From the NCBI GenBank assembly GCA_028282925.1, contig JANQGV010000182.1, forward strand, positions 1 through 52,345: a DNA stretch of 52,345 nucleotides, in the 5' to 3' direction. A program made the translations under genes and the position numbers. The notes under the pieces are model-generated. The model was not told the origin of the DNA and did not search any database. It saw only the letters and a program-made list of their open reading frames with translations. The stretch's first letter is position 1, and every line of letters starts with the position of its first letter. Origin of the DNA: Thermodesulfobacteriota bacterium. GTDB taxonomy: Bacteria; Desulfobacterota; WTBG01; CAIYCZ01; CAIRTM01. Positions 5,062-35,891 of this stretch are shown here, one piece after another.

Positions 5062-5109
5062 ATAACCCGATTATAACGCTGCTTTAATACTCCATTAACA
5101 TTGCTCAAT
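5062..5109 (+). promoter_or_regulatory. Five-unit TTAAC-type direct-repeat box upstream of olsF
   Basis: ATAAC (5062), ATAAC (5073), TTAAT (5084), TTAAC (5095) and TCAAT (5105) run in the plus direction with spacings of 11, 11, 11 and 10 bp. A possible -10 element, TATGGA (5115-5120), lies just downstream, in the place expected when an activator replaces the -35 element. The 306-bp divergent intergenic region (4887-5192) thus carries one array for each flanking gene. Otherwise it holds only AT-rich sequence. Confidence 0.55.
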
Positions 5110-5192: not shown

Positions 5193-7070
5193 ATGAAAAG
5201 CACGGCGGAATCCTCAAAGCTCATTGATATCGGACGGCATTTAAGCGACTCACTGCCCGGCAAACTGTATCCTCTCATTGAGCAGCCTTTGGAAAAAGTA
5301 CTTTCGGTGAGCGACCTGAACAGTATTTATTCCAGTCTCAGTTCTCATCCGCAGTCCCATGATTTTTTCAGCGCCTGCCTGGATCTGCTGCAGGTGGGCA
5401 TTGTCATAAGCGATGAAGACATGCAAAAGGTGCCTGAAAAAGGTACGTTGCTCGCCGTGGGCAACCATCCGTTCGGCGGCCTGGACGGCATTATACTCGG
5501 CAATCTTTTGACCCGCCGGAGAAAAGATGTGAAGCTGCTGGGTAATTATCTGCTTCACATGATTCCCGAATTGCACGACAGCATTATACCGGTTGACCCG
5601 TTTCAGGCTCAGCAATCAATTTCCAAAAACCTCAAGCCGCTCAAGGAAACGATCCGCTTTTTGAAACAGGGCGGGGCGCTGGGAATTTTTCCGGCAGGCG
5701 AGGTATCGCATTTGCAGTTGAACCGGGCGCGTATTACCGATCCTTCCTGGACAACGCATGCAGCGGCCCTTATCCGGCATACCCGCGCAACGGTCCTACC
5801 GGTCTATTTTGAGGGGCGCAACAGTAATCTTTTCCACCTGGCGGGCCTGCTGCATCCACGGTTTCGAACGGCAATGCTGCCGCGGGAGCTTACGAACAAG
5901 AAAAAGGCCGAAATTACCGTACGGATCGGCTCGCCCATACCGTTTCGACATCTTTCACGGTTTCAATCGGATCAGCATCTGACCGACTATCTCAGGCTCT
6001 GTACCTACATCCTGAAGAACCGTGCGTATAACGGAAAAAAACGGAATCCGGGTACGTCACTGTATCTATCGAAAAAAGGGAGGCCTGAGAAACTTATCGC
6101 CCCGGTTTCCGCCTGCCGGCTGTCACGGGAATTGGAGAGGTTACCCCCCGAACAGGTATTGATTAAACAGCACGATTCAACGGTATACGTAGCCGACAGC
6201 AGCCAGATACCGAATGCGCTCAGGGAAATCGGACGTCTCCGTGAGTATGCATTCAGAGACGTCGGTGAAGGAACCGGTAAAGCGATAGATCTGGACCGGT
6301 TTGATCACCACTATAAGCACATTGTTTTATGGAATGCCAGCACCGAAGAGATTGTCGGGGCATACCGTGTCGGTTTAACCGACAGTATTATGCCGGTTTA
6401 CGGTATGCGGGGCCTGTATACAACGACCCTGTTTAAGTACAAAGGCGGTTTTCTGGAAAGCCTGTCTCCGGCCCTTGAGCTTGGCCGGTCGTTTATCAGC
6501 CCGCATTATCAGAAAAAACATAACTCCCTGGCACTGCTCTGGCAGGGAATCGGCACATATGTTGCCCAAAACCCGCGCTACCGCATACTTTTCGGGCCGG
6601 TGAGTATCAGTAATGACTACCATGTTGTGTCGCGAAACCTTATGTTGCGGTTTTTGAAACACACCCGGACCGATTACCGGATGGCGCGTTTCGTCAAACC
6701 CCGTAACCCGGCTCGTCACTGGCAGCCACTTGGCCTTGAGTCCCGCCTGCTCTGTTCGCCCTGTCTGACGGTAGAACAGGTATCAGGTCTTATCTCAGAA
6801 ATAGAGCAGGACCGTAAAGGTTTTCCGGTGTTGTTGCGGCATTACCTGAGGTTGAACGGTACCATCCTCTGCTTCAATATCGACAAGCGGTTTTCCCGGT
6901 CAATTGACAGCCTCCTGGTGGTTGATATGCTTAAATCCGATCCGCGGCTGTTGAAGCGGTTTATGGGAACAGATGGATATGAAGCTTTCAGGCGCTACCA
7001 CGAGCACTCAGCTTCACCGTGCGAAGGACACTGTGCTGTGCTCAATGAAACCGACCGTCCACCGGCCTGA
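5193..7070 (+). CDS. olsF: Bifunctional ornithine-lipid synthase, OlsF type (LPLAT + GNAT acyltransferase)
   Basis: 625 residues with two acyltransferase domains. The N-terminal half is a PlsC/LPLAT domain with NHPFGGLDG (H92, D98; the HX4-5D acyltransferase motif) and FPAGE (166-170). The C-terminal half (about 330-540) is an OlsB-like N-acyltransferase of the GNAT/hemolysin-related group (EIVGAYRVGL, LELGRSFISPHYQ, LLWQGIGTYV, LFGPVSISNDY). In OlsF enzymes the C-terminal domain N-acylates ornithine with a 3-hydroxyacyl chain and the N-terminal domain O-acylates the product, giving the phosphorus-free ornithine lipid at the inner membrane. Domain order and length match that family. The preceding box array fits phosphate-starvation control. 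The start has only a weak ribosome binding site (CTTAAG region). The stop is immediately followed by the ATG of the next gene, so they are co-transcribed. Confidence 0.82.
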   Translation: MKSTAESSKLIDIGRHLSDSLPGKLYPLIEQPLEKVLSVSDLNSIYSSLSSHPQSHDFFSACLDLLQVGIVISDEDMQKVPEKGTLLAVGNHPFGGLDGIILGNLLTRRRKDVKLLGNYLLHMIPELHDSIIPVDPFQAQQSISKNLKPLKETIRFLKQGGALGIFPAGEVSHLQLNRARITDPSWTTHAAALIRHTRATVLPVYFEGRNSNLFHLAGLLHPRFRTAMLPRELTNKKKAEITVRIGSPIPFRHLSRFQSDQHLTDYLRLCTYILKNRAYNGKKRNPGTSLYLSKKGRPEKLIAPVSACRLSRELERLPPEQVLIKQHDSTVYVADSSQIPNALREIGRLREYAFRDVGEGTGKAIDLDRFDHHYKHIVLWNASTEEIVGAYRVGLTDSIMPVYGMRGLYTTTLFKYKGGFLESLSPALELGRSFISPHYQKKHNSLALLWQGIGTYVAQNPRYRILFGPVSISNDYHVVSRNLMLRFLKHTRTDYRMARFVKPRNPARHWQPLGLESRLLCSPCLTVEQVSGLISEIEQDRKGFPVLLRHYLRLNGTILCFNIDKRFSRSIDSLLVVDMLKSDPRLLKRFMGTDGYEAFRRYHEHSASPCEGHCAVLNETDRPPA

Positions 7071-12678: not shown

Positions 12679-12727
12679 TTAACCAAACATTAACAACATC
12701 TTTAACACAGCTTAACCCCGTCTTAAT
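12679..12727 (+). promoter_or_regulatory. Five-unit TTAAC direct-repeat box of the TonB operon (distal array)
   Basis: TTAAC at 12679, 12690, 12702 and 12712, and TTAAT at 12723, spaced 11, 12, 10 and 11 bp. This is the clearest array in the window. A -10-like TATGAT (12727-12732) overlaps the last unit. The order of spacings is the same as at 11835-11872 and 4970-5007. The pattern resembles PhoB/PhoP recognition (TTAACA-type repeats are known for Bacillus PhoP); the cognate regulator here is unknown. Confidence 0.6.
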
Positions 12728-12772
12728 ATGATTTTAGCATAGCACAAAAAACAAGCCGCACATTCTGCAATG

Positions 12773-12810
12773 TTAACGGGATATTAACAGGATTTTTATC
12801 ATATGTTAAT
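12773..12810 (+). promoter_or_regulatory. Second TTAAC array upstream of the TonB operon (proximal)
   Basis: TTAAC at 12773 and 12784, a weaker TTTAT at 12795, and TTAAT at 12806, all exactly 11 bp apart. It ends about 80 bp before the ATG at 12893 and overlaps a spurious ATG at 12803. It could serve a second promoter or act as an extended or repressing site. Confidence 0.45.
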
Positions 12811-12892: not shown

Positions 12893-13648
12893 ATGCAGCC
12901 AGTCAAAATCGTAATGATGATCGCGGCCGTGATTTGGGGGGTGAGTGCCGCAGGTGCTGCCGAGCAGCCTGATACAATCAAGAAGACGATAGATTCGTCG
13001 ATTTCCGTCAGATCGGAAACTCAGAAAAAGGCCGCGGACTGGCAGACCAAAAAAGAACGCATGAAAGGCCGTTATTACCAGCTCAAGGATGCTGTAGAGG
13101 CCGGGAAGCTGGAAGTAAAGCATATGCAGGATGTTGTGTCCCGTCAGGATGTGTATATCCAGCGTATGCAGAACCGCATTGTGGAAATGGAAAAGATCAG
13201 GCAGAACCTGGTGCCGTATCTTGAAGAAGTGCTGGTACGAATCGAAAAAACGGTTGAACAGGACCTGCCTTTTCTGCTTGAAGAGCGGCGAACACGGATA
13301 AGCGCTTTAAAACAGCTTATTCACGACCCGGAATTGACCATGGGCGAAAAAATGCGCCGGGTGTTTGAAGGTCTGCGGGTTGAGATGGACTACGGAAAGT
13401 CGGTGGAAACGACCAAGGAGGAAATATCCTTTGACGGACAAAAGCTGATGGTGCGGGTGCTCCGGCTCGGCCGGACGGCCCTGATGATGCAGACCCTGGA
13501 CCAAAGCGAAGTCGGAATCTTTCACAACGGAGAGTGGATACCGCTTGCGGGCAAATACCGGGAAGAAATAAAAAAAGCTATTGAAATTACTGAGCGGCGT
13601 AGACCTATTGAATTTGTCAATTTACCAGTAAAGGGGATGGTTCAATGA
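12893..13648 (+). CDS. DUF3450-family periplasmic coiled-coil protein of the TonB2-type system
   Basis: 251 residues from the ATG at 12893, preceded by GAGGAA and followed by a signal peptide (MQPVKIVMMIAAVIWGVSAAGAAEQ). The ATG at 12803 would add 30 unlikely residues and overlap the regulatory array. The mature protein is a long helical coiled coil (residues ~30-150), then an alpha/beta part with VRVLRLGRTALMMQT and FHNGEWIPL, as in DUF3450 proteins. Those are encoded first in TonB2/TtpC-type operons of marine gammaproteobacteria and relatives. The probable role is a periplasmic accessory of the energy-transducing complex. The gene overlaps the next by four bases (ATGA), so translation is coupled. 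Confidence 0.8.
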   Translation: MQPVKIVMMIAAVIWGVSAAGAAEQPDTIKKTIDSSISVRSETQKKAADWQTKKERMKGRYYQLKDAVEAGKLEVKHMQDVVSRQDVYIQRMQNRIVEMEKIRQNLVPYLEEVLVRIEKTVEQDLPFLLEERRTRISALKQLIHDPELTMGEKMRRVFEGLRVEMDYGKSVETTKEEISFDGQKLMVRVLRLGRTALMMQTLDQSEVGIFHNGEWIPLAGKYREEIKKAIEITERRRPIEFVNLPVKGMVQ

Positions 13649-15096
13649 AAAAGATGTATGTAGCCGTAGTGTTGACATGGGTTCTGACTGCAACAAGTGC
13701 TTTCGGGCAACCGGCGGCGGAAAGTGCTGTGGTAACCGACAATGCCACCCGGCTTATGCGGCCTATCGATAAAGCACAGGACAAGGCCGATGCCGATGCG
13801 AAAAAGGCCCGCAAAGAAGCCATTATGAAAGAGGCGGAAATTCTGCATGCAAAGGGCGAGCTTAAGGCCAGGGTTTCTGAAATGGAAGCCGACAAGCGCG
13901 ATCAGGACAAACTGCTTGAGTCCCTGAATAACCGCTACCATGCCAATGATAAGGAAATCGAGCGGCTGCAGAAGCGCCTGGAAGAACAGGAAGGTGCAAT
14001 GAATGAGGTGTCGGGTTCGGTGCGGGGCATCGCACAGGATACGGCAACCGTGCTGCGGCGTTCGATTGTTTCGGGTGCAGTTCCGGGACGCGATAAACAG
14101 ATTGAGCCCCTGCTGTCCGAGACCGAATTTCCTTCACTCGCCAATATTATGAAAATGACCGAACTGATGTTCGATGAAATCGAGCGCAACGGAAAAATAT
14201 CAATAACAAAACAAAAATATGTTGATGCATCCGGGCGGGAAACCGAGGGCGAAGTAATACGCATCGGGGCTTTCAACGCCCTCTACCGGAATGACAACAA
14301 AATCGGCTATCTTGAATATGCCGGTGCCAAGCAGGCCTTTCACGAGTTGACCGTCGCACCACCAACGGCAATGACCAAAGAAGCCAAAAAGTTCGTCAAA
14401 AACGATTCCCAGGGACTGTTTCTTGATCTGTCGGGCGGCTCAGCTTTTCGGCAGCTGACAGACATGCCCGGCTGGTATGACCAACTCAAATCGGGCGGAG
14501 CGCTGATGTATCCGCTGGTAGCGGTTGGGCTGCTTGCCCTCATTTTAATGACCGAGCGCCTGCAGGTGCTGGTGAAAGAGGGTAAGACAACCGAGGCCCT
14601 GGCCGACAAGGTAACAAGCTCACTGCAGAATAAAAACTGGAATGAAGCCCTGCGTCTGTGCCGTGAAAAGAAAGGCAGCCTTGCGCAGGTCATTGAAGCC
14701 GGTATCGGACATCGGCACGAACGGGCCGAGGTTCTGGAGTCGGTGCTTCAGGAAGCCATCCAGAGTACGCTTCCGCGGCTTGAACGCAGCATGTCCGCCC
14801 TGCAGATCCTGGGCATGGTGGCGCCGCTGCTGGGGCTGCTGGGAACGGTTACCGGTATGATTGCGACATTTCAGATGATTACCCTCTACGGTACCGGCGA
14901 TCCGAAAATCATGTCGGGGGGTATTTCGGAAGCCCTGATAACTACGCAGTACGGTCTGATCGTCGCTATCCCCATTATTCTTATTCACGGATATTTCCAG
15001 GGACGGATCGACAGGATTATCGGCATGCTGGAAGAAAAGGGAATTATGCTGGTCAACGCCGTCAAAAAAGACTCGGGAGCATCTGAAGCCTTATGA
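13645..15096 (+). CDS. TtpC-like MotA/TolQ/ExbB proton-channel protein with periplasmic coiled coil
   Basis: 483 residues. A signal peptide (MKKMYVAVVLTWVLTATSAFG) is followed by a helical coiled coil (about 40-130), a small periplasmic domain, then a C-terminal MotA/TolQ/ExbB channel domain (about 285-475) with the hallmark stretch MVAPLLGLLGTVTGMIATF and SGGISEALITTQYGLIVAIP. Three transmembrane helices fit this. The architecture matches TtpC, the extra ExbB-like subunit of Vibrio TonB2 systems, which couples the proton motive force to TonB. It lies between DUF3450 and exbB with four-base overlaps on both sides. Confidence 0.85.
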   Translation: MKKMYVAVVLTWVLTATSAFGQPAAESAVVTDNATRLMRPIDKAQDKADADAKKARKEAIMKEAEILHAKGELKARVSEMEADKRDQDKLLESLNNRYHANDKEIERLQKRLEEQEGAMNEVSGSVRGIAQDTATVLRRSIVSGAVPGRDKQIEPLLSETEFPSLANIMKMTELMFDEIERNGKISITKQKYVDASGRETEGEVIRIGAFNALYRNDNKIGYLEYAGAKQAFHELTVAPPTAMTKEAKKFVKNDSQGLFLDLSGGSAFRQLTDMPGWYDQLKSGGALMYPLVAVGLLALILMTERLQVLVKEGKTTEALADKVTSSLQNKNWNEALRLCREKKGSLAQVIEAGIGHRHERAEVLESVLQEAIQSTLPRLERSMSALQILGMVAPLLGLLGTVTGMIATFQMITLYGTGDPKIMSGGISEALITTQYGLIVAIPIILIHGYFQGRIDRIIGMLEEKGIMLVNAVKKDSGASEAL

Positions 15097-15695
15097 TCTG
15101 GGAAGTTTCCATATCGAAATATATTGCCATGGGGGGCTGGGTCATGTTTCCGCTGATCATGCTCTCCTTTGTGCTGGCTTTTTTAATAGTTGAGCGATTC
15201 CTGTTTTTTTCCGGAATGGCTAAAGACGACATTACACCGGACGATGTTGTTGAAGCGCTGGGGCAAACCGACTGTCGCCGCCTTGAAGCCGGTACCGGTA
15301 TGCACCGGTTGTTGCTGGCGGAGTTTTTGAATGCCCGAAAGGTGTACAACCGGCTCGACAAGGCGATCGTAGACGAGGTGGTCAGGCGCACGGTGCCGCT
15401 CTTCAATCGCCACATGCAAAGCATAGGCGCTCTCACGGCAGCGGCACCGCTGCTGGGGCTGCTTGGTACGGTGTCGGGTATGGTGACGACCTTTAACGTA
15501 ATGAATGTTTTCGGCACCGGCAACGCCAAGGCCATGTCGGGCGGAATATCAGAAGCCCTGATTACAACCCAGTATGGGCTGGTGGTGGCGATTATCGGTC
15601 TGTATGTCAGTATGATCCTGGTCCGCAGGGCACGCACGTATGAAACCATGGTTGAAGAAATCAGCATACACATAATCAGAAAGTTCAAATTATGA
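15093..15695 (+). CDS. exbB: ExbB-type biopolymer transport protein
   Basis: 200 residues, a compact MotA/TolQ/ExbB protein. A first membrane helix (VMFPLIMLSFVLAFLIVERF) is followed by a cytoplasmic loop, then AAPLLGLLGTVSGMVTTF and GGISEALITTQYGLVVAIIG forming the two pore helices. It is a paralogue of the C-terminal domain of the preceding protein: the two share the GLLGTVxGM and SGGISEALITTQYGL signatures. ExbB pentamers conduct protons in the inner membrane and, with ExbD, energise TonB. ATGA overlaps at both ends tie it tightly into the operon. Confidence 0.92.
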   Translation: MIWEVSISKYIAMGGWVMFPLIMLSFVLAFLIVERFLFFSGMAKDDITPDDVVEALGQTDCRRLEAGTGMHRLLLAEFLNARKVYNRLDKAIVDEVVRRTVPLFNRHMQSIGALTAAAPLLGLLGTVSGMVTTFNVMNVFGTGNAKAMSGGISEALITTQYGLVVAIIGLYVSMILVRRARTYETMVEEISIHIIRKFKL

Positions 15696-16096
15696 TCCAG
15701 GCAAAACGACGGCGCAGTGCAGGTCCGATTGAGCTGAATATGGGTCCCCTGATGGACCTGGTGTTTTTGTTGCTCATTTTCTTTATTGTTACAACAACTT
15801 TTGTGAAGGAAACCGGCATTGAAGTGCATCGGCCGTCAGCAAAAACGGCCGCAAAGCAGGAAAAGAGCACAATCCTGATCGGCGTCAGCAAAGAGGGTAC
15901 GGTGTATATGGAAAACCGGGTCATCGACGTCAGGTCGGTGCGGGCCAATGTGGAAAAGGCGCTTTCGGAAAGTCCGGAAGCAGGTGTTATTGTTGTTGCC
16001 GATAAAAAAAGCAACACGGGAACGGTTGTCAATGTTATCGACCAGTGCCGCCTTGCCGGGGCGAAGGGGGTTTCCATTGCGGCAAAACTCGAATAG
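15692..16096 (+). CDS. exbD: ExbD-type biopolymer transport protein
   Basis: 134 residues with one N-terminal transmembrane helix preceded by a short basic cytoplasmic tail: LNMGPLMDLVFLLLIFFIVTT contains the invariant aspartate (in PLMDLVF) needed for proton coupling. The periplasmic domain (KSTILIGVSKEGTVYMENRVI ... VVIVADKKS-like) has the ExbD/TolR fold. It pairs with ExbB and TonB in the inner membrane. The ATG overlaps the exbB stop. The stop codon is immediately followed by an intergenic repeat that separates it from tonB. Confidence 0.92.
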   Translation: MIQAKRRRSAGPIELNMGPLMDLVFLLLIFFIVTTTFVKETGIEVHRPSAKTAAKQEKSTILIGVSKEGTVYMENRVIDVRSVRANVEKALSESPEAGVIVVADKKSNTGTVVNVIDQCRLAGAKGVSIAAKLE

Positions 16097-16220
16097 CAGG
16101 CTGTTGAAATCGCCCATCTCCTGCGTTGTGCACATTGCTCAACATTGCGACGTACAAGGCGAGTACGCCTCATGTTTCACAAATTCGCACGCCTTGCATA
16201 TGAACGATTTGAACAGCCTG
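16097..16220 (+). repeat. Hairpin-rich intergenic repeat, subtype A copy 1
   Basis: A 124-bp element beginning on the base after the exbD stop. Its ends form a 16-bp inverted repeat with one mismatch (16097-16112 with 16205-16220). Inside are CCCATCT, a CGTAC/GTACG pair (GCGACGTACAAGGCGAGTACG) and CGCCTTGCATATGAAC, motifs shared with the copies at 27809, 28477, 29988 and 35767. It interrupts an otherwise overlapping operon and may form an RNA hairpin between exbD and tonB. Confidence 0.75.
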
Positions 16221-16249
16221 CATAATATAGAAAATTATAAGCACTGTAG

Positions 16250-16888
16250 ATGAATACAACAGTAAAAAGATATAGTACCGCTTTTGTGATTGCCGTGGTG
16301 GTGACGTTTCTATTGATATCCGGCATGCCTTTTTTGCTGCGGTTTGCCAGCCCCCCGCGCACGGACCAGATACGCGATGCCGTGGGGCTGGTAGGCGCGA
16401 TTAAATTAAAACCGCCGCCTCCAAAGAAACGGGTGGTTCGTAAAAAGCGTAAGCCGCCACCCAAGGTGAATCCGAAGATTAAAAACATTATGCCCAAAAT
16501 GGATACATCCAAGCTTCTGGATGTTCCCTTTCAGTTCGACCTTGGGCTTTCCCAGGGCGATTCTGATATGGGGCTCTCCCTTGGTATGAAAATATGGAAT
16601 GAGGGCGATGTGGATGTGAAGCCGGTGGCCCTGTTCAGAACCCGGCCGGTCTACCCGTCAGGGGCCATGAGTAAAAATATTACCGGGCGTGTCAGTTTTA
16701 AGCTGCTGGTGGACAAGGACGGCATGGTCAAGACTGTGGAAATCATCGAAGCGGAACCCCAGGGAGTGTTCGAGGAAGCCACCGTTAATGCGGTGCGGCA
16801 ATGGCGGTTCCAACCGGCCAAAGTAAAGGGTGAAGCGGTATCGTGCTGGTGCAGGTCGTCGATAAAATATGAGCTTGATTTGGATTAA
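16250..16888 (+). CDS. tonB: TonB-family energy transducer
   Basis: 212 residues. One N-terminal membrane anchor (STAFVIAVVVTFLLISGMPFLL) is followed by a Pro/Lys-rich periplasmic spacer (KLKPPPPKKRVVRKKRKPPP) and a C-terminal TonB domain: PVALFRTRPVYPSGAMSKN, GRVSFKLLVDKDGMVKTVEI and AVRQWRFQPAK. The YP and WRF(Q)PA signatures are diagnostic. It transmits energy from ExbBD to the receptor encoded downstream. No good ribosome binding site precedes the ATG, which lies 30 bp after the repeat. It ends shortly before the TPR gene. Confidence 0.92.
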   Translation: MNTTVKRYSTAFVIAVVVTFLLISGMPFLLRFASPPRTDQIRDAVGLVGAIKLKPPPPKKRVVRKKRKPPPKVNPKIKNIMPKMDTSKLLDVPFQFDLGLSQGDSDMGLSLGMKIWNEGDVDVKPVALFRTRPVYPSGAMSKNITGRVSFKLLVDKDGMVKTVEIIEAEPQGVFEEATVNAVRQWRFQPAKVKGEAVSCWCRSSIKYELDLD

Positions 16889-16937
16889 CGATCGGAACCG
16901 CTCAAACCGGTACAATCCATTAAAGGAGTATGAACAC

Positions 16938-18158
16938 ATGAAAGTAACCATTTTTGTTTTTTTGTTGTGCCTGGTCATTTCGCTTTCGGCATCATATGCC
17001 CAGGAAGCCGGACAGATCGACTGGAAATCGATCCCGGAGCAGACGCGCAGCATCCTGTTTAAAGCCCAGCAGGAAATGAACAAAAACAGATTTGAACAGG
17101 CAATTGCCATACTGGAAAAATTCCAGAAACGCCGGGCGAAATATAATCACTTTCTGGTGGAGTTCAATCTCGGCACCGCTTACGGGTTTTTGGGAGACTA
17201 TGACAAGGCGATTCAGTATCTTGAACGGGCCGTGGCCCTGGAGGCCGGATATGCCCCGCTGTGGCTGAATTTGGGTAAGCTCTACTATATGCAGAAACAG
17301 TTTGGGAAGGCCGGAAATGCTCTTGAGACAGGATTCCGCGCAAACATCAAGAAGGAGCCGGAAATATTATTCATGGCCATGGCTGCGTTTTATCAGGCCG
17401 ATAACCTGGAAAAAACAATCGTGCTGGGCGAAGAGCTGGTAAATACCTACGGCCGCGAAAGCACGGAAGTCGTCAGCCTGCTGGCAAATGCCTATATTAC
17501 CAGGGAAGAGTATGACCAGGCCGTAACCATGCTGACCAAGCTGACCGAGCGCAATCCGGATAATATCGATGCCTGGAAACTGCTTACCCAGGCCTATTTT
17601 AAAAATCAGAAGTACCGGGAAGCCGCCGTTGTGTATGAAACCTACGGCTATATGGGCGAGATGAAGCGCGATGAGCTGTTTATCATGGGCGATTTGTTTA
17701 CCATGGTGGGCGTGCCGATGCGGGCCGCTCAGTATTACGAACGGGCCCTGGCAGAAGGCGGTACCCCGGAAGAATATGAAAAGATGTCGGTCGCTTATTA
17801 TTCGGCCTATGAGTTCGACAAAGCTATTGCATCAATCGACAAGGCATTGGAAAAAGACCGCTCGTATGAGCGGATGCTGCTGAAGGCCCAGCTGTATTAT
17901 CTGCAGGACAAGTTTACAGAAGCCCAGAACCTGTATGTGTCCGCCGCTGAAATGATGTCGAAAGACGGCCATGAGTGGCTTATGGCAGGGTATTGCGCTA
18001 TGCGGGGCGGAGATATCGAAATTGCCCGGGAGCTTCTGCACAGGGCGACCGAATTTCCGACACAGCGGAATGAGGCCATGGCGCTTTTGAAAATGCTTAC
18101 CCCGGTTGAAGAAATCAAGAACCTGATGGCATCGCTGGAAGAAGAAACCTCGATATAA
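16938..18158 (+). CDS. TPR-repeat periplasmic protein of the TonB operon
   Basis: 406 residues from the ATG at 16938, chosen because AAAGGAG stands just before it and a signal peptide follows (MKVTIFVFLLCLVISLSASYAQ). An upstream ATG at 16869 overlaps tonB and lacks these. The body consists of at least nine degenerate tetratricopeptide repeats (for example FNLGTAYGFLGDYDKAIQYL, LWLNLGKLYYMQKQFGKA, LANAYITREEYDQAV). TPR proteins are regular members of TonB2/TtpC operons and likely scaffold the complex or assist the receptor in the periplasm. Beyond this, the partner is unknown. Confidence 0.85.
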   Translation: MKVTIFVFLLCLVISLSASYAQEAGQIDWKSIPEQTRSILFKAQQEMNKNRFEQAIAILEKFQKRRAKYNHFLVEFNLGTAYGFLGDYDKAIQYLERAVALEAGYAPLWLNLGKLYYMQKQFGKAGNALETGFRANIKKEPEILFMAMAAFYQADNLEKTIVLGEELVNTYGRESTEVVSLLANAYITREEYDQAVTMLTKLTERNPDNIDAWKLLTQAYFKNQKYREAAVVYETYGYMGEMKRDELFIMGDLFTMVGVPMRAAQYYERALAEGGTPEEYEKMSVAYYSAYEFDKAIASIDKALEKDRSYERMLLKAQLYYLQDKFTEAQNLYVSAAEMMSKDGHEWLMAGYCAMRGGDIEIARELLHRATEFPTQRNEAMALLKMLTPVEEIKNLMASLEEETSI

Positions 18159-18231
18159 AAAGGATATGTCGGGCGGTGAAGGTGTTTCAGGAACAATAAC
18201 TGCGAATAGAAATCTGGAGTGAACCGGTTGG

Positions 18232-21069
18232 ATGTGGTTTCGGATACGTTCTACAACATGGTCAGGTAACATACTCAGCTGTTTGATTCTGGTGTTGTTT
18301 CTTACGTCGGGTACGGCTTTCGGCCAGGAAGCGGATACAGGAGCAGCGGGCGGAACAGCATTGGGGAAAATTACCGGTACGATACTTGATAAAGGCGAGC
18401 AAAAACCGTTGCTGGAAGCGGGAGTAGAAGCAATTGATGAGAGTGCGCCGGCAGGTACGCCCGGTACATTCGGGCTTACCAACAGCCGGGGCTTTTTCAT
18501 GATGGAAGTAGGTCCGGGGGTATATACGCTTCGGGTAACCTACCCGAACTATCAGCCCAGGATTATTAAGGGAGTAACCGTGGAAAGCGGTAAAACCGTT
18601 ACCAGAAAGATAACCATTGAGCCGTCGCTGGTGGAAATCGATGAGATGCGCGTTGTGGCAAAGCCCAAGGGCGACGTGGAGCTGGTGCAACTGATGAAGC
18701 GGAAGGCCGCCTCAAATATTCTCGACAATATCTCGGCCGAAAGTATCAGCAAGATACCCGAATCGGATGTTGCCGGTATTCTGACCCGCATGCCGGGCGT
18801 AACCATTCATGAAGGTAAGTACCTCCAGGCCCGCGGTATGCCGAAACGGTATAACCGCAGCAGCCTGAACGGCGCGGTAATGCCGACCACCAAACCCAAT
18901 GAAAAGGTGGTGCCGCTCAATCTGTTTCCGGCAGGTGTTGTTGAGTCCATCAATGTTGCCAAATCATATTCTCCCGACCTGCCGGGTAACTTCTCCGGCG
19001 GCCTTGCTCAAATAAATACAAAATCAATCCCGGACCGGTTTATGTTCAAGTTTTCAACCGGACTCAACTACAACACGGTAACGACCAACGAAGATTTTCT
19101 GACGTATCGCGGCAGCTCGACCGACTGGCTCGGCTGGGACGACGGCGACCGTGACCTGCCGGGGTCGGTGCCGGGCGGAAAGGTGACCAAGCGCGGGCGA
19201 TTTACCAAGGAAGGCTTCGGTCCGTACAAGCTGGAACAAATCGGCGAGTCGTTCAACAACAACTGGAACACCTACACCAAAGACGCTCCTTTAGATCAGA
19301 ATTACAGTCTGCTCCTGGGAAACCGCTTCAACAAGTTCGGCATCATTTTTCACACAAGCTATAAGTTCGAATACGAGAATCGTGACAAAGAGGAGATGCG
19401 GATCTATTCGGTGCAGCAGGACAACAGCCTCAACGTTGAAAAAAGATATTCATTCCTGCGCTCCAAGCACAAGTCCGAACTGAACGGGCTTTTGAATATG
19501 GGAATAGAGCTTTCCCCCGATCATACCCTTTACTTCAACAACTTTTATACCCACACGGGCGAGGATGAAACCACCTATTATGATGGTTTTAACAGCGACA
19601 TCGGCGTCGACATCTCCGATACGCGCCTGCGCTGGGTAGAAGAGGAAATATATTCCGGACAGCTCGGCGGCAAGCACCTTTTCTATCTTTTTTTCAATCA
19701 CAAAATCGACTGGACCTACACATACTCACTGGCAAATATGTGGGAGCCGGACATGCGTGAGTACATGTACGAATATAATTCGACGGTGGATGACTTTGTG
19801 CTGGCCGATGAGAGTATGAGCGGATTCAGGATGTGGACCGAACAGGAAGAAGACATTCATGATATTGCCCTTAACTGGACGATTACGTTTGAACAGTGGT
19901 CGGGCCTGACATCAAAGTTCAAGTTCGGCGGTGCCTACATGGAGCGGGACCGTGAATTCTGGTCGCGTCGCTTTCGCTATATGCCGCGGGGGACAAACGG
20001 AATCGATTTAACTCAGTCGCCCGAGGACATCTTCGCGCCTGAGAATATCAACCATTATAATTATGAAATGGAAGAAACCACCCGCGCAACCGATACTTAC
20101 GATGCCAACCAGGAAATTTCGGCATGGTACATGATGCTGGATCTGCCGTTGACTACGTATCTGCGGGTTGCCGGCGGCTTCCGCTTTGAGCGCAACGAGA
20201 TCAATGTCACAACGATCAATTTGTTCAAGCGCGGTGAAATCATCAAAACGGATATCAGCGGTGACGACTGGTTCCCCTCTATTAACCTGACCTGGACTCC
20301 CATGGAGTCCATGAATGTGCGCCTGAGCTACAGCGAAACCGTATCACGGCCGGAGTTCCATGAGCTGGCACCGTTCGAGTTTACCGATGTCCGCGGCGGC
20401 CGCAACATCAAGGGTAACCCCGACCTGAGCGTGACCGAGATAGAAAACTTCGATATCAGGTGGGAGTGGTATCTGAACGAAAGCGATCTTATTGCAGTCT
20501 CGCTTTTTTATAAGGATTTTACCGACGCCATCGAGCGCACAATCCAGCCGACCGTCGAACTGCGTACCTCCTATGTCAATGCCGAGGAGGCCGAGTTGTT
20601 CGGTGTGGAGTTTGAGCTGCGCAAAAATCTCGGATTTATCTCGCCGTGGCTGCACAACTGGAATGTTATCGGCAACTACATCTACTGCGACTCCGAGGCG
20701 GAAGTAACGCCCAAGCCGGGGTTCGTGCCCACGAACACCAAGCGCCGGATGGTGGGCCAGGCCGACCATACCTACAACGTAACCCTGGAATACGATAACA
20801 AGGACTGGGGCTTCACCGCCCGGGTGATGTTTCAGCATATTTCTGACCGTATCAATGAAGTCGGCGGGCTGGGGCTGCCGGATATTGTTGAAGAGGACCG
20901 CAGCCGCCTTGATCTGGTGCTGATAAAGAAGTTCTGGAAGCATTATGAAATTAAATTAATCGGTAACAACCTGACTAATGAAAAAATACTGTATTCGCAG
21001 GGGGGTAATCTTTTTCATACATATAAGGAAGGAGTTACCTGGAAATTTAAACTATCTTACAAATGGTAA
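18232..21069 (+). CDS. TonB-dependent outer-membrane receptor with N-terminal carboxypeptidase-regulatory-like domain
   Basis: 945 residues. Signal peptide to about residue 33; a CarboxypepD_reg-like beta sandwich at 40-125 (GKITGTILDKGEQKP ... GVYTLRVTYPNYQP); a TonB-box-like EIDEMRVVA near 135; a plug domain (SISKIPESDVAGILTRMPGV, RGMPKRYNRSSLNGAVMP, GGLAQINTKSIP); then a 22-strand-type barrel ending in the aromatic C-terminus FKLSYKW recognised by the BAM machinery. The barrel carries SYSETVSRPEFHELAPFEF, common to receptors of the Oar/TonB-dependent group. The substrate cannot be read from sequence. Co-expression with its own ExbBD-TonB and a Pho-like promoter suggests a phosphorus-containing or starvation-related ligand. 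Confidence 0.88.
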   Translation: MWFRIRSTTWSGNILSCLILVLFLTSGTAFGQEADTGAAGGTALGKITGTILDKGEQKPLLEAGVEAIDESAPAGTPGTFGLTNSRGFFMMEVGPGVYTLRVTYPNYQPRIIKGVTVESGKTVTRKITIEPSLVEIDEMRVVAKPKGDVELVQLMKRKAASNILDNISAESISKIPESDVAGILTRMPGVTIHEGKYLQARGMPKRYNRSSLNGAVMPTTKPNEKVVPLNLFPAGVVESINVAKSYSPDLPGNFSGGLAQINTKSIPDRFMFKFSTGLNYNTVTTNEDFLTYRGSSTDWLGWDDGDRDLPGSVPGGKVTKRGRFTKEGFGPYKLEQIGESFNNNWNTYTKDAPLDQNYSLLLGNRFNKFGIIFHTSYKFEYENRDKEEMRIYSVQQDNSLNVEKRYSFLRSKHKSELNGLLNMGIELSPDHTLYFNNFYTHTGEDETTYYDGFNSDIGVDISDTRLRWVEEEIYSGQLGGKHLFYLFFNHKIDWTYTYSLANMWEPDMREYMYEYNSTVDDFVLADESMSGFRMWTEQEEDIHDIALNWTITFEQWSGLTSKFKFGGAYMERDREFWSRRFRYMPRGTNGIDLTQSPEDIFAPENINHYNYEMEETTRATDTYDANQEISAWYMMLDLPLTTYLRVAGGFRFERNEINVTTINLFKRGEIIKTDISGDDWFPSINLTWTPMESMNVRLSYSETVSRPEFHELAPFEFTDVRGGRNIKGNPDLSVTEIENFDIRWEWYLNESDLIAVSLFYKDFTDAIERTIQPTVELRTSYVNAEEAELFGVEFELRKNLGFISPWLHNWNVIGNYIYCDSEAEVTPKPGFVPTNTKRRMVGQADHTYNVTLEYDNKDWGFTARVMFQHISDRINEVGGLGLPDIVEEDRSRLDLVLIKKFWKHYEIKLIGNNLTNEKILYSQGGNLFHTYKEGVTWKFKLSYKW

Positions 21070-21161
21070 AAAAAAGACAAAGGAGGTGATAGCCGAACAA
21101 AATGGTTAAAACGTCAACAAAAGGAAAAGCACCAACAAAGAAACTAAAAGGAGAAAACAAA

Positions 21162-23027
21162 ATGAAAAAGATTTTTGCAGCACTGTTGATAGCGGTTTTT
21201 ATGTGTGCTTCCCAGGGGTTTGCTCAGACCACTGTGGAAGGTGATATTACATCAGATACAACCTGGTCAAGCGATGTGCTTCTGAGCGGCGCGGTATTTG
21301 TTAAAAACGGCGCTACCCTGACGGTTCAGAAGGGCGTAACCGTATACGGTGAGAAAGCCACCATCGGAACCCTGATTATCGCCCAGGGCGCAAAGCTCAA
21401 CATCAACGGTACCAAGGACGAGCCGGTTATTTTCACCAGTGACCAGGCCAGCCCGGCCCGTGCCGACTGGGGCGGTCTCATCATCAATGGATACTCAACC
21501 CTCAACAAGCCCGGCGGCCTAGGCGAAGGTGAAGGCGACACCGGCCAGTACGGCTGCTCCGGCTCCGACTGCAACGAGGCCGACAACAGCGGTACCATGC
21601 AGTATTTCCGCGTAGAGTTCGCCGGTATCGAGTTCAGCCCCGACAATGAATTGAACGGTATCGCCCTGCAGGGTGTCGGTTCCGGCACGACCCTGGACCA
21701 TTTCCAGGTGCATGCCAACAAAGACGACGGTATCGAGATGTTCGGTGGAACGGTTAACTGGAAATACGGTATCCTGACCGAATGTGCCGACGACAGCATC
21801 GACTGGACCGAAGGCTGGCGCGGAAGCGTGCAGTTTGCCGTGGTTCAGCAGAAGGCCGACGATGCCGACCAGGGTCTGGAATGCGACAGCCTGGGCAAAG
21901 ACCCGTCCGCCGCACCGCGCGCCAACCCGGCCCTCTACAACCTGACCGTTATCGGCGACCCCTCAACCACCTATGGTGACGAGAGCGATATCGGTGTCCT
22001 GCTGCGTGCCGGAACCGCCGTCAACCTGCGCAACTCCATTGTTATGGGCTTCAAGGAAGCCGGTCTGGACATCGACGATGAAGAGACTTTTGAAGTTGCC
22101 AATGGAAACCGCGACGAGGAAATGATCGTCGACAACAATATTTTCTACAACAACAACCCCAACTTCAGCGACGAAGCCGAAGAAGAGTTTGTTGCACCGT
22201 TTACGCCGAAAACATTCATGACCTCCATGATGTCCAACAACCTGGAAGCCGATCCCAAGCTGGGCGATGCCTATGACCTGACCGCTCCTGATTTCCGCCC
22301 CGGCTCCGGTTCCCCGGCCATCGACGGAACGGTTACCGTTGCATCTGCTCCCACGGGAAACTCTTTCATCACATCAACCGACTACATCGGCGCTGTTGAT
22401 CCCGACGACGACTGGACCCGCCAGCCCTGGACCCGCTGGGGCCTTGCTGATTGGACGAAAGAACCAGAGTGTACAGACAATGACGGCGACGGCTACGGCG
22501 TAGGCGAAGGCTGCACCGGAACCGACTGCGACGATACCGATGCAAGCGTTAATCCCGGCGCTTCCGAAGTATGTGACGACGGTAAGGACAACGACTGCGA
22601 CGGCGACGTTGACACTGCCGACAGTGACTGTGAGGATGATACTCCTGATCCTACCGATTGCCCGGTAGAGATGGTGCTGGGTGCCGACAATGCCAATCTG
22701 GATATTCTGAGAAACTTCCGTGACACTGTTATGGCTGAAAGCGCAACCGGCGCACTGTACACCCAGCTGTACTATCACTACACCGAAGAAGTCAAGGCTA
22801 TCCTGGGCGCCGACGCTGCTCTGAATGCCAAGACGAAAATTGCCCTTGATAAGGTGGTTGACCTTGCCGGAAGCGCTGTTGACGGCAAGACCGTTGTACT
22901 GAGCGACTCTCTGGCACAGGAACTCCTGAGCATTCTGAGCGCCATCAGCGAAAAAGCCGGCCTGGGCCTGAAGATCACCATCTTCAAAGCCAAAGCCGAC
23001 ATTGCAAGCGGAAATCTTCCTTTCTAA
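21162..23027 (+). CDS. Secreted beta-helix-type protein with MopE-like Ca/metal-binding motif and FRD..YY C-terminal domain
   Basis: 621 residues from the ATG at 21162 (AAAAGGAG before it; signal peptide MKKIFAALLIAVFMCASQGFAQ). An in-frame ATG at 21102, behind a near-perfect AAGGAGGTGAT, would add a basic 20-residue extension. Residues ~25-420 resemble right-handed parallel beta-helix secreted proteins (GATLTVQKGVTVYG, GAKLNINGTKDEPVIFTS, ADWGGLIINGYS). Next is a MopE-type module rich in Asp and Cys: DNDGDGYG, TDCDDTDASVNPGA, DGKDNDCDG. The last ~110 residues (CPVEMVLGAD ... LRNFRDTVM ... LYYHYTEE) resemble the C-terminal domain of CFI-box proteins such as the one encoded at 30259-33675. Probably a cell-surface or released binding protein that feeds the adjacent receptor. 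Confidence 0.75.
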   Translation: MKKIFAALLIAVFMCASQGFAQTTVEGDITSDTTWSSDVLLSGAVFVKNGATLTVQKGVTVYGEKATIGTLIIAQGAKLNINGTKDEPVIFTSDQASPARADWGGLIINGYSTLNKPGGLGEGEGDTGQYGCSGSDCNEADNSGTMQYFRVEFAGIEFSPDNELNGIALQGVGSGTTLDHFQVHANKDDGIEMFGGTVNWKYGILTECADDSIDWTEGWRGSVQFAVVQQKADDADQGLECDSLGKDPSAAPRANPALYNLTVIGDPSTTYGDESDIGVLLRAGTAVNLRNSIVMGFKEAGLDIDDEETFEVANGNRDEEMIVDNNIFYNNNPNFSDEAEEEFVAPFTPKTFMTSMMSNNLEADPKLGDAYDLTAPDFRPGSGSPAIDGTVTVASAPTGNSFITSTDYIGAVDPDDDWTRQPWTRWGLADWTKEPECTDNDGDGYGVGEGCTGTDCDDTDASVNPGASEVCDDGKDNDCDGDVDTADSDCEDDTPDPTDCPVEMVLGADNANLDILRNFRDTVMAESATGALYTQLYYHYTEEVKAILGADAALNAKTKIALDKVVDLAGSAVDGKTVVLSDSLAQELLSILSAISEKAGLGLKITIFKAKADIASGNLPF

Positions 23028-23038
23028 GCAGAGGAACC

Positions 23039-23620
23039 ATGGTTTTTGTAAAGAAACAGATTAAGATACATCGTACGCCCACCAATCCCTGCCTTCGGGC
23101 AGGGGTTGGCCTCGGGCTGCTGTGCGCGCTGCTGGTACTGCTGAGCACGGGCTGTGCCGGGGTTGCCACGGTTCCGGTTTCAGGGCCGGGGCTGACCAAT
23201 GCCGGTGCTTCCATGAAAGATCTCTGCGCCCGGATGCTGGACGCACTGCATCAAAAAGACAGGGAAACCCTCCGGGCAATCAGCATTACCGAAGAAGAAT
23301 ACCGGCACATCATCTGGCCACAGTTGCCCATCAGCAAAATCAAGCAGTGGCAGAGCCGGTATGACTTTGTATGGGGACAGCACATGATGAAAAGCGGCTC
23401 CTGCCTTGAGGACCTGCTTGTCGGTTACGGTGGAAAGCACTATTCTCTTGTTGATGTGCGGATTGTAGAGGACGTGACCGATTATGAGGACTACAGGGTC
23501 CACCGGGACGCTCGGGTGATCGTCACCGACGATACGGGACGCAAGCGTGAGCTCAACCTCTTCGGCTCTATTGTGGAAATGCACGGACAGTACAAGATTA
23601 TGAGTTACAATATTCACTAA
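23039..23620 (+). CDS. Putative lipoprotein, unknown function
   Basis: 193 residues with a basic N-terminus, a hydrophobic stretch (LGLLCALLVLLSTGC) and a cysteine at 39 in a lipobox-like STGC, so likely a lipoprotein. The mature part is alpha/beta (LCARMLDALHQKDRETLRAISITEEEYRHIIWPQLP; then REL-NLFGSIVEMHGQYKI), in the general style of SnoaL/nuclear-transport-factor-like lipoproteins, though I do not assign it. The ATG is 11 bases after the preceding stop and has AGAGGA in front. The gene belongs to the tail of the TonB operon. Confidence 0.65.
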   Translation: MVFVKKQIKIHRTPTNPCLRAGVGLGLLCALLVLLSTGCAGVATVPVSGPGLTNAGASMKDLCARMLDALHQKDRETLRAISITEEEYRHIIWPQLPISKIKQWQSRYDFVWGQHMMKSGSCLEDLLVGYGGKHYSLVDVRIVEDVTDYEDYRVHRDARVIVTDDTGRKRELNLFGSIVEMHGQYKIMSYNIH

Positions 23621-23652
23621 GTATGGAAAAGTTTTACATGAAAGGATATGGC

Positions 23653-24162
23653 ATGAAACTGTTTGAATGGAAAAAGCAGGCAGTGGCTGGGCTGGCGTGT
23701 CTGCTGCTGTTGTTGCCGGCAACGGTATGTGCCGAGCCGACCGGTTATGGAAATGTGCAGACCGCCCAGGGAATTTCAATCAAGCTTCCTTTTGTCAATT
23801 TCGGATTTGAGGTGATAACCGAAGGGACCAGTTCGTATCCGATAACGCGGACGCTGACGAATTCTATGCCTCTGGACCAGGACCTGACCATTTTTCTGCT
23901 GTGGGGTTATACCGGTGACAAGTTTACGGTTACATTAGAGGATCTAGGTGATACGGGCGACCGTTTAATGGGATATATGGTAACCTCCACGGGCGAACAG
24001 CGCTGGGGCACCATGTACAGCTCATCAAGTCAGACCTCTTTTTCAATCGATATGCCGATTTTCAACACCGGTGTGATTGTCTTCCTGTATTCGGGCTTTT
24101 TGACTCCGTCAACCGGCGCGGAAGCCTACAGCTACACAATCGAGGTATCCTATCCGCAGTAG
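23653..24162 (+). CDS. Exported protein, unknown function
   Basis: 169 residues. Of three closely spaced in-frame ATGs (23623, 23638, 23653) the last is preferred: AAGGAT precedes it and it opens a standard signal peptide (MKLFEWKKQAVAGLACLLLLLPATVCA). The mature protein is beta-rich, Thr/Ser/Tyr-heavy and lacks cysteines (FGFEVITEGTSSYPITRTL ... YSYTIEVSYPQ), as in small secreted beta-sandwich domains. No family recognised. It lies 32 bp after the lipoprotein gene and is probably the last gene of the long operon. Confidence 0.6.
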   Translation: MKLFEWKKQAVAGLACLLLLLPATVCAEPTGYGNVQTAQGISIKLPFVNFGFEVITEGTSSYPITRTLTNSMPLDQDLTIFLLWGYTGDKFTVTLEDLGDTGDRLMGYMVTSTGEQRWGTMYSSSSQTSFSIDMPIFNTGVIVFLYSGFLTPSTGAEAYSYTIEVSYPQ

Positions 24163-25347: not shown

Positions 25348-27705
25348 ATGAAAAAAACGGGACGGATTCTTTTTACAGTACTGATTGTTTTTATGGCGGG
25401 AGTATTACCGCTGCATGCCTTTACCCCGGGAAGTGTGCAGGTAACGGTTCAGGATTTCTACAGCGAAGCACCACTTGCGGGTGCCGCGGTATCCATGACG
25501 CCGGGTGATTACGCGGGAACAACCGGCGATAACGGTATGGTAACCTTTTCCGGGATTACACCTTATAGAAATTATGCTGTTTCAGTGAGCCTGGACGGTT
25601 ATGCCGAGGGCAAATACGGCGACGGCCGCACGGGATTTATAACGGTTGAAACCGGCACAACCACCGATATCTTGATTCCCATGCGGCAGGCCGCTTCAAT
25701 CAGTGGTGTGGTAACCTCGGGCGGAAACCCGGTAGAAAACGCTATGGTGGTTGTGTTGGAGGACCGGATGGACGGCATGGAACAGGTCGTGGCGACGAGA
25801 ACGGGAACTGACGGCACATATCTGCTCTCGGCAGTGCCCGAAGGCAACTTCAGCATCCGAGCGGTTGCCGACGGTTATTACCAGACCAAGGAAGATCTGG
25901 AGGTGAGCGCCGGGGAAGAAATCGTTAAGGACTTTTCCATTAAGCGGGGCATTACTTTTCTGTCCTATAAAATGAAGACAACCAAAAAATACTACGGTAA
26001 TTCACTCTCGGTTCAGCCCGACAACCTGCTTATCTACCTTCTGAATACGTTTTACTATGTGCCGGTTGCCATGCCGGAAGGTGCTCAGCTTCTGAAGGCC
26101 TCCAGCACCAGTGTTACGCCGACGCTTCCGGGCGATTACACCTTTGCCATGATCGTTATCGACTGGAAAGGTGTGGGCCGGGAAGTGGTACAGACCTTCG
26201 AGATGATCAATGACCCGACCCAGGCGTACCCTTCCGTTATTCCGGGTCCGTCGGAACTGCCGCTGCTGTATGACAACGAAGTATACTCCGAAACCAGCGG
26301 CCTGTCCGGTGTGCAGCCGGGCGAAAAGGTCTTTCTGCGCGGCTGGGGTAAGGACTTCAACCTGCCGTCGCCCGAGCAGTTCAATCCGGATGCACCAATG
26401 TTCGACATCTACGGCAATAAGAACGGCGACTGGGGCCAGTCGGCTTTTTCATTTGCCTGGACGCTCGAGGACGGTGACGGCAGTGACGCAACCGGCCTGC
26501 TCAGCGATCCGGCGACACGCAATCCGTCATTTACCATTCCCCAGGATGCCCAGGCCGGTGATACCTACACGGCAACACTGTCGGTTACCGGTGATGCCGG
26601 GCTGGCCGGCGACCCTGGAGAGGTCACCGTGTATGTGGCCGAGACGGCCGGCACGGATTCATGTATTTCCTGCCATACGGAAACGCACACCGACTATCTG
26701 ACCACGCAACATGCCGGCGTCAACGTGGGCTGCGAAGATTGTCACGGCCCCGGCAGCCTGCATGACGGCGATTCGGACCGGATCTCCACAACCAGCTGGC
26801 CGGGTATGTGCGGTCAGTGTCACGATGAGTTTGCGGAATGGCAGAAGTCGCGGCATTCCGACCCGCTGGCGTTCGGTCACGCCGAAGTGTCTTCGGCGCT
26901 GCAGCGCAACTGCTATAAATGCCACTATACCGAAGGATTTATCGGCGCAGCCGCCTCGGGAAATGTAGAAAATTATGATTATCCCTTCGGCACCGAAGCC
27001 CCGGTTGATACCCCCAATGTCAGTTGCGACGTGTGTCATGATCCGCATAAGCAGAGCACCGACAACCCGACCGGCCTCCGGACCGGCGGTCCCGAAAACC
27101 TGTGCAATACCTGTCATGAAAAGAAATGGCAGAACGCAACCTATGAAGCAACGGCCGGGGAAATTGAAAACGGCTATCACTGGGACGACTACTCCGCCTA
27201 TGAAGGCAGCGGAAACCTGCACCACATGGCGGACGGATGTGTTGCCTGCCATATGTCACGGGATATAACTGATACGGACAATAACAGCGTGCGGCTGGTG
27301 GGCGGTCACGGGCTCAGAATGCGCGATGTGGGCGCCGACGGAGACCCCGGTACAGTCGACGACATTCTCAATATTAACGTTTGCCAGAAGTGTCATGCCG
27401 GTATCGAAACCTTCGACCGTAACGGTTTCCAGACCAAAATCAAGCAGAAGCTGGTCAAACTCGGCGATCTGCTGAAAGGCGAGAATCACGGATTCTTACC
27501 TCCGTTTCAGCCGGGCAAGTGTGCAACCTGCCATCGTGGTGGTACGCTGCCGTTTATTAAGGACACCGCCACCGAAGACCTTAATAATGCCTATAAGAAC
27601 TACAGCCTGATCCTGCATGACCGCAGCTTCGGCATTCATAATCCGCGTTATATCGAACGGCTGCTTGACGACAGTATAGACGCTGTTGAAAAGGCAAAGC
27701 AATAA
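25348..27705 (+). CDS. Nine-heme c-type cytochrome with two carboxypeptidase-regulatory-like domains
   Basis: 785 residues; ATG after a strong GGGAGGAGA. Signal peptide MKKTGRILFTVLIVFMAGVLPLHA. Two CarboxypepD_reg/PEGA-like beta-sandwich domains follow (about 28-110 and 112-200), then an extracellular-looking region with a Ca-binding-style LEDGDGSDATG. Nine CXXCH heme-binding motifs lie between residues 439 and 729: CISCH, CEDCH, CGQCH, CYKCH, CDVCH, CNTCH, CVACH, CQKCH and CATCH. It should be a periplasmic or surface-exposed electron carrier or reductase; hemes are c554/OmcA-like in arrangement but no catalytic motif is clear. An FNR/HcpR-type operator precedes it and a terminator follows, so it is a single-gene unit controlled by electron-acceptor status. 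Confidence 0.88.
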   Translation: MKKTGRILFTVLIVFMAGVLPLHAFTPGSVQVTVQDFYSEAPLAGAAVSMTPGDYAGTTGDNGMVTFSGITPYRNYAVSVSLDGYAEGKYGDGRTGFITVETGTTTDILIPMRQAASISGVVTSGGNPVENAMVVVLEDRMDGMEQVVATRTGTDGTYLLSAVPEGNFSIRAVADGYYQTKEDLEVSAGEEIVKDFSIKRGITFLSYKMKTTKKYYGNSLSVQPDNLLIYLLNTFYYVPVAMPEGAQLLKASSTSVTPTLPGDYTFAMIVIDWKGVGREVVQTFEMINDPTQAYPSVIPGPSELPLLYDNEVYSETSGLSGVQPGEKVFLRGWGKDFNLPSPEQFNPDAPMFDIYGNKNGDWGQSAFSFAWTLEDGDGSDATGLLSDPATRNPSFTIPQDAQAGDTYTATLSVTGDAGLAGDPGEVTVYVAETAGTDSCISCHTETHTDYLTTQHAGVNVGCEDCHGPGSLHDGDSDRISTTSWPGMCGQCHDEFAEWQKSRHSDPLAFGHAEVSSALQRNCYKCHYTEGFIGAAASGNVENYDYPFGTEAPVDTPNVSCDVCHDPHKQSTDNPTGLRTGGPENLCNTCHEKKWQNATYEATAGEIENGYHWDDYSAYEGSGNLHHMADGCVACHMSRDITDTDNNSVRLVGGHGLRMRDVGADGDPGTVDDILNINVCQKCHAGIETFDRNGFQTKIKQKLVKLGDLLKGENHGFLPPFQPGKCATCHRGGTLPFIKDTATEDLNNAYKNYSLILHDRSFGIHNPRYIERLLDDSIDAVEKAKQ

Positions 27706-35766: not shown

Positions 35767-35891
35767 GAGACTGATGGAAAACATCCATCTGCTGCGTTAT
35801 GCGAAATATTCGGCATTGCGACGTACAACCGAGTACGCCTCATGCCTCATGATTTCGCAGGCCTTGCATCTGAACATTTTCCCCCATTCTC
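35767..35891 (+). repeat. Hairpin-rich intergenic repeat, subtype A copy 2
   Basis: 125 bp starting on the base after the C45-peptidase stop. The ends pair (GAGACTGATGGAAAA against TTTTCCCCCATTCTC, with mismatches). Inner text CATCCATCTGCTGCG, GCGACGTACAACCGAGTACGCCTCA and GCCTTGCATCTGAACAT matches the element at 16097. It lacks the ATCCCGAT hairpin of subtype B. Confidence 0.75.

Follow-up and report, generated by a model that had tools for sequence, protein, structure and literature searches.

What does a TonB-dependent system import when it comes with its own motor, its own receptor and a secreted beta-helix protein encoded behind that receptor? The question is raised by ten genes in a 52,345-nucleotide stretch of DNA from a Thermodesulfobacteriota bacterium (contig JANQGV010000182.1, assembly GCA_028282925.1), the whole of which we call the window. 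Between positions 12893 and 24162, all on the forward strand, lie genes for a DUF3450 protein, a TtpC-like protein, ExbB, ExbD, TonB, a tetratricopeptide repeat (TPR) protein, a TonB-dependent receptor, a beta-helix protein, a lipoprotein and a small secreted protein (Table 1). Our analysis makes it probable that this is a PhoB-controlled TonB system that scavenges phosphorus across the outer membrane with a TonB2-type motor of its own. Receptors induced by phosphate starvation are already known, yet their cargo and the motor that drives them mostly are not; what is new here is the regulation of the operon, marked by putative Pho boxes.

A complete TonB2-type operon behind tandem repeats

All six components of the Vibrio-type TonB2/TtpC energizer occur together in the locus: TtpB (DUF3450), TtpC, ExbB, ExbD, TonB and TtpD (TPR). 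An earlier annotation made from the DNA letters (the original prediction) had listed the genes in this order and proposed a TonB2/TtpC-type module with a dedicated receptor. Every gene named is present, and Pfam and NCBIfam searches of the operon proteins, the source of our family assignments, support both module and receptor; the best NCBIfam match of the receptor is TIGR01782 (TonB-Xanth-Caul) at 258 bits, under the cut-off of 310. Successive genes are separated by -4, -4, -4, 153, -20, 73, 32, 11 and 2 bp, and because these gaps are small or overlapping the ten genes likely form a single operon.

Upstream of the operon, TTAAC-like units begin at 12679, 12690, 12701/2, 12712 and 12723, then at 12773 and 12784, with a spacing of about 11 bp, so that the tandem lies 83-214 bp before the probable operon start. 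The 52-kb window contains seven four-unit matches (score of at least 18 out of 24) compared with 0.1 expected under a first-order Markov model, and all seven are upstream of either the operon, where scores reach 21, or an OlsF-like gene. A genome-wide scan allowing up to two mismatches found 27 sites as against 11 for a backwards control. The best sites, on contig C18, precede phoB-phoR (score 21), pstS (19) and a unit of a secreted protein and a porin (22). The best NCBIfam match of this PhoB is TIGR02154 at 259 bits, under the cut-off of 296, and PstS exceeds its own cut-off. Because phoB-phoR and pstS have equal boxes before them, the TTAAC repeats look like the Pho boxes of this genome; in Synechocystis, three tandem TTAA repeats are reported as a PhoB site tested by electrophoretic mobility shift assay (PMC11126600). 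A second TtpC module of the source genome (contig C281) has no Pho-type box at a score of 18 or more and serves as a natural negative control. Judged by these boxes, phosphate (PhoB) regulation of the operon is well supported and very probable.

The second module (L046) is a complete DUF3450-TtpC-ExbB-ExbD-TonB-TPR set adjoining a 712-amino acid (aa) protein, by eye a receptor; two ABC-exporter-like genes and a DtxR-like gene, named by eye and not by family search, are its neighbors. At L045:1713-3687, a secreted protein of 169 aa and a Porin_5 porin follow the genome's strongest Pho box.

The OlsF-like gene of the window has a Pho-box-like repeat of its own and would belong to the same regulon as a separate unit. 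It fits the Pho regulon because ornithine lipids substitute for phospholipids in a phosphate-limited Desulfovibrio, in which an olsF mutant is reported to have lost fitness (PMC5193443). Nearby on the reverse strand are a PAP2 gene (10231-10761) and glycosyltransferase genes (3054-4886 and 9109-10188), a neighborhood that suggests lipid remodelling.

The first protein of the operon probably starts at 12893, as originally predicted, rather than at 12803, where its longest open reading frame (ORF) opens, because ORF residue 31 is a methionine with an apparent signal peptide and 12803 falls within the Pho boxes. For the beta-helix protein, whose ORF opens at 21102, the true start is probably 21162. 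The sole long gap, the 153 bp between exbD and tonB, contains a dispersed 132-bp element (16095-16226) resembling a miniature inverted-repeat transposable element, with 22-bp inverted ends that are 86% complementary; another copy lies at 35777-35879, and the source genome has 44 matches, the element itself included. Behind the operon, 25348-27705 encodes a multihaem cytochrome c carrying CarboxypepD_reg domains. We rejected it as part of the operon: an opposite-strand ORF intervenes, and no CxxCH ORF is listed in the loci of five relatives.

Table 1. Features of the TonB operon and of the OlsF-like unit in the window
Feature	Position	Strand	Remark
Pho-box-like repeat before OlsF-like gene	5062..5100	+	putatively same regulon, separate unit
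OlsF-like bifunctional acyltransferase (ornithine lipid, phosphate-sparing)	5193..7070	+	best match NF052615, 396 bits, under cut-off 620
Tandem Pho-box-like repeats, TTAAC, 11-bp period	12679..12810	+	two clusters: 12679-12738 and 12773-12809
DUF3450 protein, TtpB-like	12893..13648	+	Pfam DUF3450, E=3e-69; longest ORF from 12803
TtpC-like protein, N-terminal extension and MotA/TolQ/ExbB domain	13645..15096	+	MotA_ExbB match
ExbB	15093..15695	+	MotA_ExbB match
ExbD	15692..16096	+	ExbD match
TonB	16250..16888	+	TonB_C match
TPR protein, TtpD-like	16869..18158	+	TPR match
TonB-dependent receptor	18232..21069	+	CarboxypepD_reg, plug and barrel
Secreted right-handed beta-helix protein, putative ElpS/FII-type core, MopE linker, helical tail	21162..23027	+	ORF from 21102
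Lipoprotein, possible NTF2/cystatin-like fold (weak assignment)	23039..23620	+	
Small secreted protein, without known family	23623..24162	+	

The receptor and its beta-helix partner in other genomes

Searches within the phylum, each including the source genome itself, found the receptor in 6 of 58 genomes (E<=1e-60) and in 10 of 395 (E<=1e-100). In all 10 receptor-bearing genomes of the phylum a beta-helix homologue adjoins the receptor or lies within about 7 kb of it. Three relatives of the same family (G002, G003 and G007) have the same order, from DUF3450, TtpC, ExbB, ExbD, TonB and TPR through receptor, beta-helix protein, lipoprotein and small secreted protein, and then phoB; the ORF list of G007 lacks a TPR gene and a separate ExbB. 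Only G002 and G003 have phoR behind phoB, with pst genes nearby in the former and porins in the latter; the two porins of G003 adjoin the TonB operon together with a small protein of the same kind as the 169-aa one behind the top-scoring Pho box of the source genome. The G053 locus has tonB-, exbB- and two exbD-like genes together with the receptor, the beta-helix gene and a metallophosphoesterase-like gene, and a PhoB-like gene there is divergent. PhoB/PhoR-like genes are near the module in G185, as are pst-like genes in G091.

We then scanned the beta-helix alignment against 84,980 species genomes and kept 79 loci, derived from the 80 top-ranking among at least 432 confirmed matches, in which genes were counted from tblastn maps. 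They span Acidobacteria, Poribacteria, Calditrichaeota, Myxococcota, Latescibacterota, Bacteroidota, Alpha-, Beta- and Gammaproteobacteria and others; two loci (L059 and L060) apparently duplicate the genomes G003 and G002 and so are not independent. The original prediction had staked its reading on the downstream secreted genes staying with the receptor. For the beta-helix gene this holds in every receptor-bearing genome of the phylum and across the survey, where the receptor accompanies it at 67 of 79 loci and at 46 of the 47 flanked by 5 kb or more on each side. It does not hold for the lipoprotein (20 of 79) and the small secreted protein (3 of 79; conserved in the three family relatives and L079), which on these counts are accessory. 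TtpC is present in 28 of the 79 loci. PhoB-like genes occur in 29 at a threshold of at least 110 bits, which is that of the OmpR family and not specific; Pst or PhoU genes occur in 12, and Pst/PhoU or a PhoB of at least 180 bits in 25. We estimate the chance of a pst cluster within 20 kb at about 1%, a figure that is our own and not a measured control. Two Nitrosomonas loci (L123 and L136) have PhoX between the beta-helix gene and pstSCAB, and in Robiginitomaculum a PhoR-PstSCAB-PhoU-PhoB cluster is divergent from the beta-helix-receptor pair.

Phosphate-starvation counterparts of this pair have been published. In Caulobacter crescentus, ElpS (CC0170) is described as a lipoprotein of the cell surface whose production is specific to phosphate starvation, and its gene adjoins that of receptor CC0171, upstream of gspC-N (PMC2996285). 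Our locus L114 has homologues in the matching order, with beta-helix gene, receptor and then GspC, D, E, F and G identified by Pfam; L124 shows the same arrangement, judged by ORF length and order only. By this synteny of homologues, the beta-helix protein is placed with ElpS. The Flavobacterium proteins FI, FII and FIII have 31-36% identity with the Caulobacter lipoprotein, are strongly induced by phosphate depletion, and adjoin receptors and a phoBR cluster, FIII being an orphan; FII (Fjoh_0546, entry IPR011050) adjoins receptor Fjoh_0545, both in the phoBR cluster, where an OprP-like gene also lies (PMC8115612). Caulobacter PhoB has also been reported to control various TonB receptors (PMC11208175).

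Fold of the beta-helix protein and nature of the cargo

We aligned 58 beta-helix sequences, consisting of 55 of the 70 beta-helix ORFs, the window protein, L056 and L057; long (about 900 aa) alphaproteobacterial proteins are outside this alignment and the counts drawn from it. The resulting AlphaFold model (predicted local distance difference test 87, predicted template modelling score 0.72) has a right-handed beta-helix, then a linker modelled at low confidence, then a helical tail, and together with fold comparison indicates a pectin-lyase-like core. The closest solved fold is pectate lyase Pel9A (Z 23.1, root-mean-square deviation 3.2, 288 residues aligned), with alginate epimerases/lyases and NosD tied; identity is 7-14% in the rows shown. 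Pel9A holds Ca2+ via a cluster of Asp residues similar to the acidic ladder of our protein, D188 D189 E192 / D210 D211 D214 / E240, which is invariant in 58/58 sequences, as are E124, E163, W103, N115 and N165. A five-sequence query found no sequence relative in the Protein Data Bank at E<=1, and the two rows returned by the 58-sequence query (E 0.6-0.9) were set aside as chance-level. The proteins at 23039 and 23623 matched no Pfam or NCBIfam family. A fold for the lipoprotein at 23039 was not assigned either, at a best Foldseek E of 0.03; its best Z of 9.5 (4qan, cystatin-like, root-mean-square deviation 4.7, 136 residues aligned) is only a lean toward an NTF2/cystatin-like fold.

Under the reading that we prefer, low phosphate would lead PhoB to bind the tandem boxes and switch on the operon, yielding a dedicated Vibrio TonB2-type motor (TtpB, TtpC, ExbB, ExbD, TonB and TtpD) together with the receptor/beta-helix pair. 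The beta-helix protein, at or near the cell surface, would capture or trim a phosphorus-bearing polyanion, probably through the acidic ladder, which may be able to hold Ca2+. The receptor would import the ligand, periplasmic phosphatases would release its phosphate, and PstSCAB would take this up. It is likely that the cargo contains phosphorus, and we favor a polyanionic organophosphate. The original prediction had guessed at a phosphorus-related ligand, and the guess gains support from the Pho boxes, the phoBR, pst and phoX neighbors and the published counterparts.

Several observations weigh against this reading. The Caulobacter receptor gene cc0171 is reported to be constitutive and not phosphate-regulated, unlike elpS (PMC2996285). 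By regular expression, a lipobox is present in 30 of the 58 homologues and in none of the five with a tail, and the window protein has none, so its surface location is uncertain. The source genome carries a PhoA-type phosphatase, and no box with a score of 17 or more was found within about 1.4 kb upstream of the PhoA-like gene; nor were PhoX or PhoD matches found in this genome. In three phylum genomes (G106, G363 and G034) no Pho gene was found near the module, over 14-20 kb. A further search, for a three-unit tandem of a degenerate PhoB unit in the 69 surveyed loci with at least 400 bp upstream, speaks for the reading by its period, while its unit control is weak. At period 11, 31 of the 69 had the best tandem of the locus in the stretch of about 1.6 kb upstream of the module, with 7.2 expected by length; the other nine periods (7 to 16) gave 9-17. 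Against these 31, a reversed unit at the same period gave 23 and 20 column-permuted units gave 10-29. Since permuted units reach 29, enrichment by unit letters was rejected and only the contrast between periods was used: the 11-bp period is the firm part of the enrichment, and the letters are weakly tested. All periods exceed the expected 7, probably through AT-rich upstream DNA.

Could the operon be phosphate-regulated and yet import a metal such as iron, calcium or copper, for instance iron from iron-phosphate or a phosphatase cofactor, bound by the beta-helix and MopE parts? Where the ligands of TtpC modules are known, they are siderophores (PMC6957404). The invariant acidic ladder and the shared fold of the metal protein NosD also speak for it, as does a Cu-binding_MopE match of 41.8 bits (cut-off 27), which the original prediction took as a hint of possible metal uptake. 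However, this motif is found by regular expression in only 2/58 homologues and is not conserved in the family as a copper protein of this kind would have it. It sits in a lineage-specific tail region and not in the core: five of 58 homologues, the window's among them, extend more than 100 residues past the core, and 53 end within 10 residues of it. The tail also recurs across the source genome, where 43 of 45 other matches to the beta-helix protein cover the tail and not the core, so that we rejected MopE as a clue to the ligand and the metal reading loses support. Since the tail is found in few homologues and recurs in the genome, tail and MopE linker are probably a lineage-specific sorting or anchoring module. 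With the second TtpC module free of Pho boxes and phosphate genes recurring near the module, metal import seems unlikely. The tail itself (22680-23024) resembles CFI-box-CTERM (NF041770, 30 bits, under the cut-off of 40) and is common to more than 40 stretches of the source genome.

It has also been reported that ElpS increased alkaline phosphatase activity in supernatants (PMC2996285), and the pair might accordingly activate rather than import, with the ElpS-like protein stimulating a secreted phosphatase and the receptor aiding its surface display or signaling. The adjacent PhoX in Nitrosomonas and the metallophosphoesterase, named by eye, behind the beta-helix gene in G053 are in keeping with this. 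Yet a dedicated six-gene motor would be costly for mere display, the receptor possesses both plug and barrel, and deletion of cc0171 is reported not to stop ElpS production (PMC2996285); we consider activation quite improbable. Less probable still is a polysaccharide lyase acting on a uronate-type polysaccharide, for its carbon or for phosphate decorations. The nearest folds would suit such an enzyme, and FI and FII have been likened to polygalacturonase (PMC8115612). Against this stand the low identities to those folds, the phosphate context, the lack of any carbohydrate-enzyme family in the Pfam and NCBIfam searches of the operon proteins, and the absence of Lys and His among core residues conserved in at least 85% of the 58 sequences, a set that does include Arg 150 and Arg 282.

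Probable phosphorus scavenging and its relation to known systems

The cargo of Pho-regulated TonB receptors becomes a directly testable question. Motor, receptor and proposed capture protein, with phoB in relatives, form one block, which makes each of them open to deletion or expression as a unit. The ElpS/FII family gains a fixed receptor partner in many phyla, and the findings suggest that the use of TtpC-type motors extends beyond iron. We also put forward, tentatively and as a doubtful possibility, that several phyla made a motor of the siderophore kind private to the Pho regulon, with motor, receptor and Ca2+-bridging capture protein in one operon, and with a phosphate polymer as the cargo (nucleic acid, polyphosphate, or teichoic or lipopolysaccharide phosphate). 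Large phosphorus compounds would then have an energy-driven route that is produced and regulated separately from iron uptake. Among the papers listed by our literature searches, none links a TtpC-type motor with the Pho regulon.

MopE is a copper-binding protein of Methylococcus, and the likeness to it is a single Cu-binding_MopE motif, here within a variable linker and absent from most homologues. The operon differs from SusCD/PusCD systems in having no SusD-type lipoprotein beside the receptor, and Pfam and NCBIfam found no SusD family among its ten proteins. With ElpS/CC0171 it shares a secreted protein beside a TonB-dependent receptor; in contrast to that locus, it has no type II secretion system and an entire TonB motor, its relatives have phoB behind, and no lipobox is seen in its beta-helix protein. 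The Flavobacterium johnsoniae FI/FII/FIII systems (PUSIII, and PUSIV with phoBR) find a parallel in G003, which likewise has receptor, beta-helix protein, lipoprotein, secreted protein, phoB, phoR and porin. The parts of the Flavobacterium report considered here make no mention of a TtpB/TtpC/TtpD motor (PMC8115612), which is present in our operon. That motor is closest to the Vibrio TonB2/TtpC system (TtpB2, TtpC2, ExbB2, ExbD2, TonB2 and TtpD2), of which TtpB2 and TtpD2 are reported to be essential components (PMC6957404). The same six kinds of protein, including the TPR and DUF3450 proteins, make up both; in Vibrio the system is described as iron-induced and serving siderophores (PMC6957404), whereas here it is accompanied by putative Pho boxes and phosphate genes.

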